From IMG/VR virus record IMGVR_UViG_3300042731_003906, positions 1-24,919 of that record: DNA of 24,919 nt. One strand, given 5' to 3'. Source of the stretch: a virus. The position numbers were made by a program, and so were the translations under genes. The stretch's first letter is position 1. Every line of letters starts with the position of its first letter. The notes under the pieces are model-generated. The model saw nothing but the letters and a program-made list of their open reading frames with translations. It was not told the origin of the DNA and made no database searches. Shown piece after piece: positions 7,087-13,041 of this stretch.

Positions 7087-9420
7087 ATGACGGTAACAAC
7101 CATTTTTTTCAACGGGCGTCTCATTAGCGTCCCCGGGAGCTATTCTGAAATTAATGCCAGCGGATTAGAGGTCGTTGGCCTTTCTGCCACTGGGATCGTT
7201 GCCTGTGTCGGAGAGGCTGTTGGCGGCAAGCCGTGGACGGAAATCCCCGACAGCGAGGTAAAAGACAACCTTGAGGTCGACAACACGGGCCGAAAAACGT
7301 TTGATTTTTTCAAAAGCGGAGATCTGAAAGAGGCAGGTCCGTTGCTTTTTGGTCCGTCGAATGACGATGACATTCAAAACGGGGCGGCAGAGGTTGTTTA
7401 TGTGAAAACAAACCCGGCCATCCAGAGCACTTACACTTTTACAAATACCGACGGTGATGCCTGTTTGGTAACTAGCCGCGATTATGGTTACCATACCCGT
7501 CAAATCAAAATGGCGATCGGGACAGGGACAAATCAAGGAAAACTGATCACTATTGAATACGAGGATATCACCGAGACGTTTGATGATGTCGGCGGGGATG
7601 TTATGTTTAAAATCCAGTACGAGGCCACAACCCCGGCTAATGGATTTTCGACAATCGGCGTCAAGATGTTGACAACGGGCCTTGAAGCTCTATTTACTGT
7701 TGCTCGATCTGGGAAGGATGCCGATATTACCAATCAGGTAACGGCAGGCCAAAAAATCGAAATGGTCAGCGACGACGTTGGTGACACGATGAATGTCGTT
7801 ATTTACGGCACCAACACCTCGGACGCGGCGCAAACCGAAACGGTGGCGCTAACCGGAACCACGGTTGCAGAGAGTCAAAACACCTGGAATGAAATCCACG
7901 GGGCCTATATCGCCTCGGCACCGGCAGGGACCGTGACAATCCGTAACCTTTCCGGCGGGACCACAATCACGACATTAACCTCGGGAGCCATGACAAAGGG
8001 GCTCCACGCGATGAGCGAGGTTGCCGTGGCCGGCGAAACCATCGCCTTTGCGGCGGACGCGGCGACAACAAAACGGCTAACGGTTGTTGGCAAGGCCTAT
8101 AGCGGATCCGCTCAAATCGAAACCATCCAATTAAACGGCACCACATCTGTCCCAACGACGGGAACTTGGTCCGAAATAACTTATCTAGCAATGGGTGAGG
8201 TCGAGGCAGCGCGCACGGCTACAGCTAGCGGAAACGCGGTAAAAGTTGCCGCCACGGGCAGCCCGACGCCAACAATTCAGCGCGCGGCCGATAAATTCAA
8301 CGGCACGGCCGGGTGGACATTCACGATCGTTACGGGCAGAACGGCATATTTGCTCAGTGATCTGGATTATGTGACAACGGCATCCGATGTAAAAAGCCCG
8401 GCGGAGCCAAGCTTTTACGCAAACTTGGCGCTGTTCATTGAAAAACTGAACCTGGAAAGTGAACTTGTTTCCGCAGCGAGATCTACCGGCGGAACAACTT
8501 TCCCGGATAACACATCGGCCGATGTTTATTTATCGGGCGGCCACGAGGGGAGTTCCACCCCCGGGCAAGAGGGGATCCCAACATCAACACAGTCAGATTG
8601 GCAGGGCGCGCTCGATCTGCTTAAAAAAGTGCGGGTCAATTCGATCGTTGTGTTAACCGGCGATCCAGCCGTGCATGCGGCGCTATCTTCACATCTCAGC
8701 TACATGAACGGCGTTGGCCGAAGCGAGCGCGATGGATTCGTTGGGTTGTTAAACACGGCGATGACCGATTTGCCGACCAAGGCGGAAATCAAGAGTCAGA
8801 TTATCGATCTGAACACTCGATACATTCGGGCATGGGGGCAAAATGTTGAGAGGTATAACACTTCTGGCGAAAAAGAGGTTATGTCATCTCCGTTTGGCGC
8901 GGCAATCCTTGCCGGCATGCAAGCCGGATCCCCTGTTGGAACATCGCTAACGTGGAAATATATGAACACGTTATCCATTGAGCAGGACGCGAGCTGGAAT
9001 CCAACAGACGACGCCGAGGAAATGATCAACGCTGGCCTTGTTTTTGCGGAGGTTATCGACGGCGTTGGCCGGCGCGTTGTGCGAAACGTGACAACACATC
9101 TAACATCGAGCAATATTGCCTATACTGAAGGATCGGTGGTTGAGGCGGTGAATTACGCTGTTTACAATTTCCGAACAGCGATGGAGCGGATTGTAGGCCA
9201 GTCAGGTTTCGCGGGTACGGTTACGGCGGCAAAGGGGGTTGCTGTTAATCAGCTTGGATTGCTTGTCGGCGTGGCGCTTGTTGCATGGCGATCTCTTGTA
9301 ATCGATCTTATTATCGATTTTCTTGAAGCCGCCGTCGAAATGGCACCGGTATTGCCGATTAATTTCGTTGGCACAACTGTTCATTTGGTTACAATCCCGC
9401 AAAGTGCGGCAGCTGCATAA
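7087..9420 (+). CDS. Contractile tail sheath protein
   Basis: This 777-residue protein forms the outer contractile layer of the tail. The N-terminal ~100 residues (FFNGRLISVPGSYSEI, then GLSATGIVACVGEAVGG) carry the usual sheath opening, in which the chain asserts a PG-x-Y motif followed by a G-x-[AV]-x-[IV]-x-G-x-A strand. Residues ~480-640 hold the core with VNSIVVLTGDPAVHAALSSHLSYMN and GRSERDGFVGL. The C-terminal ~120 residues (EAVNYAVYNFRTAMERIVGQ, ending FVGTTVHLVTIPQSAA) are the conserved domain that threads strands between neighbours. An insertion at ~215-400 contains two Ig-like repeats and makes the protein longer than a minimal sheath of roughly 400-500 residues. The gene is followed by the tube gene, as expected. 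Confidence 0.9.
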   Translation: MTVTTIFFNGRLISVPGSYSEINASGLEVVGLSATGIVACVGEAVGGKPWTEIPDSEVKDNLEVDNTGRKTFDFFKSGDLKEAGPLLFGPSNDDDIQNGAAEVVYVKTNPAIQSTYTFTNTDGDACLVTSRDYGYHTRQIKMAIGTGTNQGKLITIEYEDITETFDDVGGDVMFKIQYEATTPANGFSTIGVKMLTTGLEALFTVARSGKDADITNQVTAGQKIEMVSDDVGDTMNVVIYGTNTSDAAQTETVALTGTTVAESQNTWNEIHGAYIASAPAGTVTIRNLSGGTTITTLTSGAMTKGLHAMSEVAVAGETIAFAADAATTKRLTVVGKAYSGSAQIETIQLNGTTSVPTTGTWSEITYLAMGEVEAARTATASGNAVKVAATGSPTPTIQRAADKFNGTAGWTFTIVTGRTAYLLSDLDYVTTASDVKSPAEPSFYANLALFIEKLNLESELVSAARSTGGTTFPDNTSADVYLSGGHEGSSTPGQEGIPTSTQSDWQGALDLLKKVRVNSIVVLTGDPAVHAALSSHLSYMNGVGRSERDGFVGLLNTAMTDLPTKAEIKSQIIDLNTRYIRAWGQNVERYNTSGEKEVMSSPFGAAILAGMQAGSPVGTSLTWKYMNTLSIEQDASWNPTDDAEEMINAGLVFAEVIDGVGRRVVRNVTTHLTSSNIAYTEGSVVEAVNYAVYNFRTAMERIVGQSGFAGTVTAAKGVAVNQLGLLVGVALVAWRSLVIDLIIDFLEAAVEMAPVLPINFVGTTVHLVTIPQSAAAA
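7795..8229 (+). repeat. Tandem Ig-like modules inserted in the sheath (coding repeat)
   Basis: Residues 237-287 and 331-381 of the sheath align without gaps over 51 positions. Shared positions include Gly5, Ser9, Ala12, Gln13, Glu15, Thr16, Leu19, GTT at 21-23, TW at 30-31 and EI at 33-34. The preceding residues also match (VTAGQKI versus VAVAGETI). The unit length is about 94 residues, consistent with two surface Ig-like domains derived by duplication. Confidence 0.65.
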
Positions 9421-9453: not shown

Positions 9454-9900
9454 ATGCCTGAAAAAGGTCGAGTTTTTACCGGAGCGCGCGCCCGGTTAAT
9501 GATTCAAGGAAAAAAGGTTGGATATTGCACGAATTGTGCTGGATCTGAGGAGTTGCAGCTAGAGCCTATCGAGGTTCTTGATAATATCCAGGTCGAGGAG
9601 CATGTTCCTGTTGGCTATCGCGTAACCTTCACGGCCTCAACCGTTCGCATAATCGGAGAAACGATCAAATCCGTGGGTATTTTCCCGAAGGTTGGAAAAT
9701 CTCCCGAGGAGCACTTGACGAACGTTTTGGTAAGTGGTGAGCTGGTGGCGGTTATTGAGGACAATAAAACAAATTCGGCCATGATGACGCTTGAGCAGGT
9801 GAAATGCAGTAGCCATAATTTCACGGTCAATGCTCGCGGCGTTGTTGGTACGGATTTGACGTTCGTCGGGATCAGGATGCTAGACGAATCGGAAACCTAA
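9454..9900 (+). CDS. Tail tube protein
   Basis: This 148-residue protein has the size, order and pattern of a contractile-tail tube protein. These stack as hexameric rings to form the inner tube through which DNA passes. It opens with FTGARARLMIQGKKVGYCTNC, then LEPIEVLDNIQVEEHVPVGY, a beta-strand region with the EHVP-x-GY turn typical of this tube group. The remainder alternates strands (RVTFTASTVRIIGETI, LVSGELVAVIEDNKT) and ends GVVGTDLTFVGIRML. Cys25 and Cys28 form a CxxC. It follows the sheath directly and precedes the chaperone pair and tape measure, the canonical order. Confidence 0.88.
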   Translation: MPEKGRVFTGARARLMIQGKKVGYCTNCAGSEELQLEPIEVLDNIQVEEHVPVGYRVTFTASTVRIIGETIKSVGIFPKVGKSPEEHLTNVLVSGELVAVIEDNKTNSAMMTLEQVKCSSHNFTVNARGVVGTDLTFVGIRMLDESET

Positions 9901-9928: not shown

Positions 9929-10450
9929 ATGACAATATTGCCTACGCAGGAAGTTACAGGGGAAGCAATTTCGCCAGAGAAGTTAAATAAAAAATTCATA
10001 GGCGAAGACAAAAGCCCTGAACAGCAGGTTGAAGATCTGCGAGATCCACGATTGCAAGAGGAATGGACGTTTGATTTTTCTTATACCGATCAACGTGGCC
10101 GAACATGGCAAGGGGAATTTACGAACAAGATTTTGAACTTGATCGAAATCCCTCGAGTGGCGGCTATTAGATCGCAAATGTTAGGCAATATTCCAATAGA
10201 TGCGGCCGACTACGGGACGTATCAACATACGCATCGATTAGCACATATGACGATTAGTTTAATCAATCGACCAAGATGGGCAGAAGGAGACAAGCTGGGA
10301 TCTTTATACGATCCTCAGATTGTATCCGAGCTTTTCGGGAAGGTGGCCTCGCACGAGGCAATATTTTTCGGACGAGACGAGGATCAGGAAGCTAGTTCGA
10401 GCGGAACAAAAAACGCAAACGGGAAAGCTAAGGGGTTGGTGGAAAAATAA
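9929..10450 (+). CDS. Tail assembly chaperone, upstream frame (gpG-like)
   Basis: This 173-residue protein has GGAG at 9917-9920 and starts at ATG 9929. It lies between tail tube and tape measure, where tailed phages place the gpG/gpGT-type chaperones that hold the tape measure in an assembly-competent state. The N-terminal ~45 residues are charged and probably flexible. The core (EEWTFDFSYTDQRGRTWQGEF, then TYQHTHRLAHMTISLINRP) is beta-rich and followed by a helical stretch (DPQIVSELFGKVASHEAIFFG). The C-terminus (from ~150) is low-complexity, Ser/Lys/Gly/Asn-rich and contains A-runs. The next frame overlaps it by more than 100 bases and lacks its own start, as expected if a fraction of ribosomes shifts to make a longer fusion. 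It is independent of sequence-family recognition and rests mainly on position. Confidence 0.65.
   Translation: MTILPTQEVTGEAISPEKLNKKFIGEDKSPEQQVEDLRDPRLQEEWTFDFSYTDQRGRTWQGEFTNKILNLIEIPRVAAIRSQMLGNIPIDAADYGTYQHTHRLAHMTISLINRPRWAEGDKLGSLYDPQIVSELFGKVASHEAIFFGRDEDQEASSSGTKNANGKAKGLVEK
10405..10450 (+). other. Candidate programmed frameshift region
   Basis: Two adenine runs lie in the overlap. At 10408-10413 the codons read ACA AAA AAC; a P-site AAA could slip +1 onto AAA and enter the downstream frame. At 10443-10447 the codons read GAA AAA TAA; the AAA tRNA at 10445-10447 could re-pair at 10443-10445, a -2 slip with the stop codon waiting in the A site. The first run is also a perfect -1 heptamer (A AAA AAC), but the -1 frame stops at 10429. 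Phage Mu is reported to use a -2 shift in the equivalent gene. Confidence 0.5.
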
Positions 10451-10763
10451 ATATGAACAGAACACAACGAACAGAAAATTCGACGAACAAACACTAGGAG
10501 GCTTAGTCCGGGAATATTACGAGGACGCAGCAAATGAGCTAGATCGGCTAAGGGGACAACTAAGCACCGATGGCTACAATTCAGATATTGAGGAGAGAAT
10601 AACCGATCTTGAGCGGCTATTTTCGGACGATCCCGTTGATCTCAGGAGCCTCGATGCCGACGAATCATTAGCAGAGTGGAATAAACCGCGAAAAACCGGC
10701 GATCCCTTGGCCGACAAATGGGAGGAACAAATTGCTCGTGGAGAAATCCCAGATCTAGGCTAA
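10410..10763 (+). CDS. Frameshifted extension of the tail assembly chaperone (gpT-like)
   Basis: This region is open in the frame one base ahead of the upstream chaperone and continues to TAA at 10761. It has no ATG or GTG, and its only TTG (10320) lies deep in the upstream gene with no ribosome site, so independent initiation is unlikely. An AGGAGG at 10496-10501 has no start codon within reach. The translated region after the overlap is helical and acidic (REYYEDAANELDRLRGQL, then IEERITDLERLF, and SLAEWNKPRKTGDPLADKWEEQ), a typical chaperone extension. Reaching it needs a +1 or -2 shift, giving a fusion of about 277-278 residues. The listed left edge is approximate because the shift site is not proven. 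Confidence 0.6.
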   Translation, partial: KTQTGKLRGWWKNKYEQNTTNRKFDEQTLGGLVREYYEDAANELDRLRGQLSTDGYNSDIEERITDLERLFSDDPVDLRSLDADESLAEWNKPRKTGDPLADKWEEQIARGEIPDLG

Positions 10764-10773
10764 GGGATCAAAA

Positions 10774-13041
10774 ATGCCAAACAATGCTGATTTTAGTTTA
10801 AAAATCAAAGCGGACAGCACCGAAGTTAAAGGCCTCCGAAACGAAATAAACAAGGCCTTTTCCCCTGTCAGCGCACGGCAGATGCGCACGGTAGTAAAAG
10901 ATCTCGAAGGCCAGTTTAACCAGCTGGTTCGTACCCAGAGCAAGCTAAATCGCGAGCTGTCCGGGCTAGACGTCGGCACCAAAGAATACAAAAAAATTGC
11001 CAAAGAATTAAAGCAGGTTCAGACCAACGCACAGGGCGTTGTTTCGATCATGCGCGAAATGAAACGTTTGCAGGACGAAACATCGAGGAAACGCCAGGGT
11101 TTTGTTGCAGGCCTGGGCCAGGGATTAGGCGTCGCTCAATATTTGCCGACAGGGCCAGGCATGATGGGCAGAATGGCCGGCGCAATGGTTGGCGGCGGAT
11201 TGCGGCGCGGCATTGGTGCGGGGATCGCACCGTTTCAAATGCCAGGGATCGGCGGGTTCGCACAGGCGCTTCAAGCGATCCCGTTTTTTGGACCGGCGGC
11301 GAGCGGTGCCATTCAGGCAGCAAGCGGCATGTATCAGCAGGCGGTTGGCTATCAACAATCCCAGCTGCAAAATCTTTATCTAGGCGGCGGTAGGCTTGGC
11401 GGGGGCATGCAGCAAGGGTTGGGTGGCGCAAGGGGACAAGCGAGCAGAGCGACGATTGCGGCGATTAATGCCGAACAGGCCACAATTCGCCGAAATGAAC
11501 AGATGGTTAATGACGCTAAAAAAGCAGAAAACTGGACGCGGCATTTCAATCAACTTCGGGGAGCATGGCGACAACAATACCTCGAGCAGGCCAAGAGAGA
11601 AAAGCGCGAAGGCAAGGCGACCGGGGGCGCGGCAGCCATTGACGAAATGAACATTCAAAACATTGTCGGGAGAATTCAAAAATTGACGCCTCAAAACGCT
11701 CCGGGGGCGTTTGGGCGCGCGGCAATGCGGCGCATGCCGGATTTTAGAAAAGAGGCTACACGGCTTTATCAGGGCACAATTGCAGCCGCCAAAGAGACAT
11801 TAGAAACATCAAAGGAACGCCTTGCGGATCTCCAGGCGCAGGCGCGAGCCGAGGCAGGGCGAAACCGCTTTTTGAAATTGCGTCAGCGGTTCGTTGGTCA
11901 AACGCTAGGGGTTGGATTTGGGGCCGAATTCGGATTTGGACCGACACAGGTTCAAGGCATGTTGGGCCAATTCGGTCAAGCCCGAGGAGGCCTTCTCGAT
12001 CGAGAAATGCGAGGACAATTACGCGAGGCAATGGCAGCGCAAGTTTTTGCCGGCGTAGGGGTTCAGCAATCTGGACAGTTTTACCGCATGGGCATGGCGG
12101 GCGGTGGCGGCACGGGCGCTAGATCATTATCGGAGTCGATCGCTTATTCCATGGTACAAGGCCTCGAGGGGAGTCAGATTGCCGAAAGTCTATCCACGCT
12201 TGTCAACTTGGGGCAATCGGCTGAACAGCAGGGTGTGAAAATAGATCCCCGTGAATTTCAGCGCGGCGTAACGCTAATGGGAGCACAGGGGATCGGTTTA
12301 CAAGGCCTTCAGGCGCAGCGGGTTACAGGGGGAATTTCCCGCGCGGCAATGCAACTAAGCCAGCAGGGTGTTAGGGGTCCTCAAGACATGCTTCTTATGC
12401 GGGCAGCAGGATACGATCCGTCGAAGGGGCCATTGAGCTATGTGCGGGCTATTCAGCGATTAGAGGGTGGGATCTCCGGCGAAGGCGGGGGGGAAATTTT
12501 AACAAATTTACTCGGCATGATGACACAGGGCACACAAGGCGGCGGCGTTTTTGCCGCGCCGGAGATGCAAGCGTTTTTTTTGAGGCGATTAATGGGTCGC
12601 ATGGGAGTAGGCATCGGTGCTGGACAGGCGACAAAAATTTTAGATGCGTACAGAAAAACCGGGCAAATAGATCCCGAAACGATGAGCCGCGTAAAAGAAT
12701 CGCAAAGAGCCGCAGAGGATCCAAATGTTCGACAGGATTTAATTACAGCCGGCGCGAGGAGAGCGGGTTTTGGCGCACCGGCGGCCGTTCAGGCAGCACG
12801 CATGCAGGCCGAGCAAATTCAGCAGGGCCAAAAGTTTGGCAAATTAATGGATCAATTACAACGCGCGAGTGTGGATACCGTAAAAGTTTTGGGAAATTTT
12901 GAAGGGGGATTAACATCGGCGGCCAGCAAAGTCCGAGAATTCATTCAGGCGGTTGATACCTTTACAAAATCTGGCCTTATGCGCGGCATAAAGAATTGGT
13001 TCGATCCTGATGTTCCATTAGGGGGCAGTGGCGGAAAATGA
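10774..13041 (+). CDS. Tape measure protein
   Basis: This 755-residue protein sets tail length and is packed inside the tube before being ejected. The N-terminus (ADFSLKIKADSTEVKGL) is the usual opening of tape measure proteins, followed by a charged coiled-coil region (~30-110). A Gly/Ala-rich, membrane-inserting type segment covers ~112-220, with LGQGLGVAQYLPTGPGMM and IPFFGPAASGAIQAASGM. Residues ~230-370 are helical, with EMNIQNIVGRIQKLTP among them, and ~375-600 are Gly-, Gln- and Met-rich. The end (TVKVLGNFEGGLTSAASKVREF) is helical. It follows the chaperone pair and its stop overlaps the next start (ATGA). At ~0.15 nm per residue, a helical tape of this length predicts a tail of about 110 nm, an estimate from general knowledge. 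Confidence 0.85.
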   Translation: MPNNADFSLKIKADSTEVKGLRNEINKAFSPVSARQMRTVVKDLEGQFNQLVRTQSKLNRELSGLDVGTKEYKKIAKELKQVQTNAQGVVSIMREMKRLQDETSRKRQGFVAGLGQGLGVAQYLPTGPGMMGRMAGAMVGGGLRRGIGAGIAPFQMPGIGGFAQALQAIPFFGPAASGAIQAASGMYQQAVGYQQSQLQNLYLGGGRLGGGMQQGLGGARGQASRATIAAINAEQATIRRNEQMVNDAKKAENWTRHFNQLRGAWRQQYLEQAKREKREGKATGGAAAIDEMNIQNIVGRIQKLTPQNAPGAFGRAAMRRMPDFRKEATRLYQGTIAAAKETLETSKERLADLQAQARAEAGRNRFLKLRQRFVGQTLGVGFGAEFGFGPTQVQGMLGQFGQARGGLLDREMRGQLREAMAAQVFAGVGVQQSGQFYRMGMAGGGGTGARSLSESIAYSMVQGLEGSQIAESLSTLVNLGQSAEQQGVKIDPREFQRGVTLMGAQGIGLQGLQAQRVTGGISRAAMQLSQQGVRGPQDMLLMRAAGYDPSKGPLSYVRAIQRLEGGISGEGGGEILTNLLGMMTQGTQGGGVFAAPEMQAFFLRRLMGRMGVGIGAGQATKILDAYRKTGQIDPETMSRVKESQRAAEDPNVRQDLITAGARRAGFGAPAAVQAARMQAEQIQQGQKFGKLMDQLQRASVDTVKVLGNFEGGLTSAASKVREFIQAVDTFTKSGLMRGIKNWFDPDVPLGGSGGK

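Follow-up and report, generated by a model that had tools for sequence, protein, structure and literature searches.

Tail assembly chaperone gene of an uncultured tailed phage with a very probable +1 slip site at a conserved UUU codon

The stretch of viral DNA analysed here (IMG/VR record IMGVR_UViG_3300042731_003906, positions 1 to 24,919, all 24,919 nt of which are referred to as the window) carries on its plus strand a tail module in which a two-part gene sits between the genes for the tail tube and the tape measure, as an earlier note on this DNA had proposed. The tail sheath protein is encoded at 7087-9420 (PHROG 279, tail sheath, E 4.9e-38), followed by the tail tube protein at 9454-9900, which matches the tube family PHROG 985 (E 1e-9) as well as PHROG 365 (tail protein) and could be aligned with the tube genes of Staphylococcus and Listeria Herelleviridae. 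The putative tape measure protein at 10774-13041 is assigned mainly by position and size, its PHROG match being weak (E 0.17); homologues occupy the equivalent place in two related loci, L003 and L009. The first part of the two-part gene, gene A (9929-10450, plus strand), extends from an ATG at 9929 to a TAA at 10448-10450 and would give the short, gpG-like form of a tail assembly chaperone of 173 aa (TAC-N). The second part, the T-like C-terminal half (TAC-C, 10368-10763, plus strand), is predicted to be read only as a +1 extension of the first. Gene A is read in frame 2 mod 3 and the downstream (B) frame is 0 mod 3, which places B at +1, or equivalently -2, relative to A and confirms that -1 slippage is unable to reach it. 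The B frame is open from 10263 to 10763, far upstream of 10405 or 10410, where the earlier note had let it begin, and alignment with relatives puts the start of its conserved coding part at about 10365. Neither ATG nor GTG occurs in the B frame between 10263 and 10763, as had been stated; TTG is found at 10320 and, contrary to the note's single occurrence, also at 10707, near the end of the frame and the sole TTG inside 10368-10763. A fusion of the two parts in the window would comprise 146 + 131 = 277 aa.

Used as queries in pattern searches and tblastn, the A and B proteins of the window recovered no relatives among viral contigs, and the A protein gave no match when searched against phages. 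The tail tube was thus taken as search anchor instead of the chaperone halves. The tube of the window yielded seven loci and the tail sheath one more, and an alignment of tubes as query returned 48 loci from viruses and, from genome assemblies, one each in a Planctomycetota MAG and a Myxococcales MAG chromosome. The A and B halves were then run by tblastn against the DNA that follows each tube; both halves are present in dozens of the tube loci, with the second half in the +1 frame in every one. The 44 homologous loci examined consist of the window, its environmental relatives and loci from SPO1, Kayvirus, Listeria, Enterococcus and other Herelleviridae phages. For 42 loci, the site and the surrounding stops were tabulated, with L056 and L068 checked separately, and the codon statistics are based on the 31 nearest non-redundant loci. 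The locus from the Myxococcales MAG assembled as a chromosome (L058; CP070713.1, 3219827-3228267) carries the same junction within a related tail module and possibly represents a prophage or a tail-derived element. In three further loci, L054, L055 and L056, the tubes are just 46-48% identical and the junctions read TCC or TCG TTT CGT; their N-terminal halves group with those of Herelleviridae while their C-terminal halves resemble those of the window's lineage, and by these mixed affinities they form a bridge between the two.

Gene A is identified as a tail assembly chaperone by the PHROG matches of its relatives, by profile comparison and by its predicted fold. When scanned individually against PHROG and Pfam, A and B returned nothing usable, the A protein of the window being without a PHROG match. 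Among the 31 nearest relatives, the first half matches PHROG 25000 in 26 and PHROG 1038 in 15, both of which are annotated as tail assembly chaperone. Similarly, a profile of gene A aligned to the Herelleviridae chaperones with a probability of 98.4 (hhalign, E 8e-15). The AlphaFold model of gene A (pLDDT 82) matched named tail assembly chaperones among others in BFVD, the best E values, down to 8.6e-8, being those to unnamed phage proteins; a fold search of the PDB with the same model returned nothing significant. For the C-terminal half, a PHROG scan gave no consistent family, and its similarity to the Herelleviridae counterpart is weak (39 columns, probability 87.9, in a comparison in which one side included the bridging loci L054 and L055).

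The A/B frame relation is identical in all 44 homologous loci with both halves. Thus, the earlier proposal of a chaperone C-terminal frame which lacks a start of its own and is entered by shifting to the +1 frame is borne out well beyond the window, and the recurrence of the same relation in every homologue with both halves indicates more than chance and rules out a sequencing error. An error in sequence or assembly, such as an A lost from a run, would be the least probable of the explanations considered: the window is one contig of a metagenome, and one base added near 10471 would create an ORF from the ATG at 10453, but independent contigs and isolates show the same relation by the dozen, the Myxococcales MAG chromosome among them. 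Column alignment of the window with 43 homologous loci places the candidate frameshift site, ATA_TTT_TTC_G, at 10361-10370 on the plus strand. The codon context of the junction in the window is GCA ATA TTT TTC GGA with the TTT at 10364-10366, and an in-frame TTT is present at this junction in all 44 loci, usually as UUU_C (in L056, TCG TTT CGT; in L068, ACC TTT CGA). Of the 31 nearest non-redundant loci, 26 have a C directly after the TTT and 5 a T. The zone in which the ribosome would have to change frames, bounded upstream by the closest +1-frame stop and downstream by the closest zero-frame stop, was narrowed for 42 loci in common to -5 to +9 around the TTT. Amino-acid conservation in the +1 frame sets in at this very codon, and homology to the relatives in that frame extends from the shift site through to the stop. 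No excess stability of RNA structure was detected 3' of the site (mean z +0.26, 42 loci).

As a control for chance, the three Phe columns that are invariant in the first-half alignment were compared. The junction is TTT in 31/31 loci, while the other two columns are mixed, with TTT in 12 and TTC in 19 loci and with TTT in 10 and TTC in 21, respectively (22/62 pooled; Fisher p 1.3e-10). As this test counts loci as independent, the comparison was repeated on a tree, on which the junction codon shows no change, like two Glu codons at -24 and -9, against 4-10 changes at the 19 other two-fold columns tested. In the GC-rich loci L005, L003 and L041, TTT makes up just 9-11% of Phe codons, yet the junction is TTT.

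Taken together, the long chaperone form of this uncultured tailed phage very probably arises from a +1 slip at the UUU codon, and we consider it highly likely that a lambda G/GT-type chaperone pair is expressed here by programmed +1 frameshifting of the kind known from SPO1-like phages. The majority of ribosomes would translate gene A from 9929 to 10450 and yield the short chaperone. A fraction would stall with tRNA-Phe in the P site on the UUU at 10364-10366; this tRNA would re-pair one base forward, on UUU at 10365-10367 (UUC in most relatives), and decoding would resume at UCG (10368-10370) and continue in the +1 frame to 10763. The fusion would then read ...SHEAIF|SDETR across the junction, with VASHEAIFSDETR as the tryptic peptide expected from a +1 shift. 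The short and the long form may cooperate in tail assembly around the tape measure, in a division of labour that we take over from lambda by analogy. In the window, the A-site codon is a common Phe codon, neither a stop nor clearly rare, and the cause of a stall is not obvious; on UUU_U, the re-pairing of tRNA-Phe is equal, not better. The sequences themselves show the frame relation, its conservation, where the frames cross and the homology to known chaperones; the slippage, its direction in the window and its efficiency are inferred.

The resulting frame in the window is also compatible with a -2 shift at the same place, by which tRNA-Phe on TTC (10367-10369) would move two bases back onto TTT and produce ...EAIFF|SDETR, with the peptide VASHEAIFFSDETR. 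Such a shift has a precedent in the tail chaperone gene of phage Mu, which is the same gene type with the same resulting frame and is the known -2 case (PMC3498833), and the earlier note had named -2 slippage, at another site, as an option. Re-pairing at -2 is indeed feasible in 13 of the 42 tabulated loci, the window and 12 relatives: the window, L006, L022, L036 and L052 have TTT_TTC and the eight others TTT_TTT_C. It is, however, impossible in the remaining 29/42, among them L003, L005 and L009, which are close relatives, and every Herelleviridae locus examined, whereas tRNA-Phe could slip +1 from UUU to UUC or UUU in 42/42, which makes +1 the common mechanism. A -2 shift in the window would require a switch of mechanism within one conserved site, and as a single conserved site is best explained by a single mechanism, +1 is preferred for the window as well. 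The Mu-like option thus holds as feasible in the window and fails as a shared mechanism, and we regard it as unlikely.

The B half might instead be a separate gene, translated from the TTG at 10320, from a non-standard start or by coupled re-initiation, and many annotated Herelleviridae records do give it as a separate gene from an internal ATG. This is very improbable. Many relatives have the B frame closed immediately before the site, and several offer no ATG, GTG or TTG in that frame ahead of the conserved domain; in L003, L005 and L058, there is no start for at least 142 nt into the conserved domain, and in L003 and L058, the first ATG, GTG or TTG of the +1 frame lies 184-196 nt in. With the UUU as its start, the homologous conserved region reaches further upstream than the internal ATGs of those annotations. 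Even less credit is due to a shift further downstream, at ACA AAA AAC (10406-10414, +1) or GAA AAA TAA (10442-10450, -2), the two sites suggested before. These A-rich stretches exist and the B frame is open at both, but they lie 42 nt and 78 nt downstream of the conserved TTT, respectively, and conservation is seen at neither. The zero frame of most relatives is over before the equivalent positions; most of the 31 nearest have its stop 12-45 nt past the UUU. Furthermore, conserved residues of the +1 frame are encoded upstream of the A-rich sites, including, for GAA AAA TAA, a Trp that is invariant in the C-terminal domain (codon at 10437-10439). Alignment of homologues thus upholds the frame relation given by the earlier note and removes the A-runs as sites.

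The preferred +1 slip at the UUU is preceded by a conserved element in two parts. The distal part, at 10340-10345 on the plus strand and 24 to 19 nt before the TTT, reads AAGGTG in the window and GAGGTG in most relatives; the proximal part, a GAG at 10355-10357 on the same strand, lies 9 to 7 nt before it. GGT at -22 to -20 is invariant in 31/31 relatives, and AG at -8 to -7 is invariant in the lineage. The distal Glu codon is GAG in 25/25 loci with Glu and the proximal one in 30/30, each with 0 synonymous changes on the tree. This suggests that the two upstream GAG codons form a cis-acting 5' element, and as their region is not double-coding, a role at the level of the mRNA is likely. The distal part is Shine-Dalgarno-like; both parts may be functional, with a possible stimulatory role of the GAG elements on the shift. 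The proximal GAG occupies the position that the Shine-Dalgarno stimulator of prfB would have, and the distal part lies, to our knowledge, farther from the slip codon than any described stimulator. The upstream GAGGTG and GAG are absent from the Herelleviridae loci examined. It might tentatively be speculated that the uncultured lineage uses a UUU_Y +1 site without a stop or CGN in the A site, driven by the upstream GGAGGTG (~20 nt) and GAG (~7 nt), possibly by pairing with the anti-Shine-Dalgarno sequence.

A short and an extended chaperone between tail tube and tape measure are likewise known from lambda (gpG and gpGT) and from most tailed phages. Lambda-type chaperones are made by -1 slippage on a heptamer (PMC5009743), from which the window differs by its proposed +1 shift on UUU; its downstream half is outside the -1 frame. 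A +1 shift in this gene is already on record and hence known in kind, from the GenBank record of SPO1 and from Bacillus megaterium phage Moonbeam, whose +1 frameshift to a secondary tail chaperone was termed unusual, the site not being given (PMC4299906); by that description, it is like the shift proposed for the window. In the record of Bacillus phage SPO1, the homologous pair gp10.2 and gp10.2-gp11.1 is marked as ribosomal slippage with a joint product by a +1 shift, and it resembles the window in gene position, in profile homology of the N-terminal half and in the +1 position of the C-terminal half. The junction in SPO1 is CAT TCC TTT CGT, i.e. an in-frame UUU_C. TTT CGN is also present in representatives from phages of Staphylococcus, Bacillus, Listeria, Enterococcus, Lactobacillus and Aerococcus; in Staphylococcus phage S24, the first chaperone gene ends AAC TCC TTT CGT TAC TAA, with the opening of the +1 frame immediately ahead of the TTT, and the Quidividi record gives a joined frameshift product for the chaperone. 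All Herelleviridae examined have UUU_CGN, many of them with a stop two codons on, whereas the window's lineage has UUU_CNC, UUU_UUU_C or UUU_UUC; UUU_CGN is absent from the window itself (UUU_UUC), and its relatives have UUU_CNC or UUU_UUU_C. For the archaeal myovirus HSTV-2, a +1 frameshift in the chaperone gene has been described as very likely (PMC5009743), a likeness in gene and direction of shift going by the published description. In the literature searched, we did not find a definition of the UUU_C site for SPO1-like or Herelleviridae phages, many journals lying outside that coverage.

The same class of P-site UUU_C +1 slip is found in influenza A PA-X, where slippage on UUU_C at UCC_UUU_CGU was proven by peptide sequencing and UUC is the better partner of the tRNA-Phe anticodon (PMC3498833). 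PA-X differs in being an unrelated gene translated by a eukaryotic ribosome, and the likeness of its site to that of the phage chaperones is certainly convergent. The nine bases TCC TTT CGT in S24 (Kayvirus; L059:9759-9781) and SPO1 (L067, near 10355-10363) are identical to the PA-X site.

The window is thus a well-supported further example of the SPO1-type +1 chaperone frameshift, as judged from its sequence relatives. The apparently new element is a lineage beyond the sequenced phages, whose sites are UUU_CNC, UUU_UUC or UUU_UUU_C and in which the pair of upstream GAG codons never shows a synonymous change; the chaperone gene of this lineage is unrelated at the blast level to those of sequenced isolates. 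A +1 chaperone shift which has been called unusual in SPO1-like phages would accordingly be conserved across the sampled Herelleviridae subfamilies and in a separate environmental lineage. Pinning the site to the UUU codon allows the fused gene to be annotated correctly, and the conserved upstream GAG codons offer a testable case for what can drive a +1 slip on UUU when no stop codon is present. With regard to annotation, the second chaperone half is labelled as RNA polymerase (beta subunit) in Listeria phage LMTA-148 (L062:1412-2005), Lactobacillus phage Lbab1 (L065:1352-1966) and Aerococcus phage AVP (L066:1280-1807); judging by position and frame, these genes are the +1 chaperone extension.
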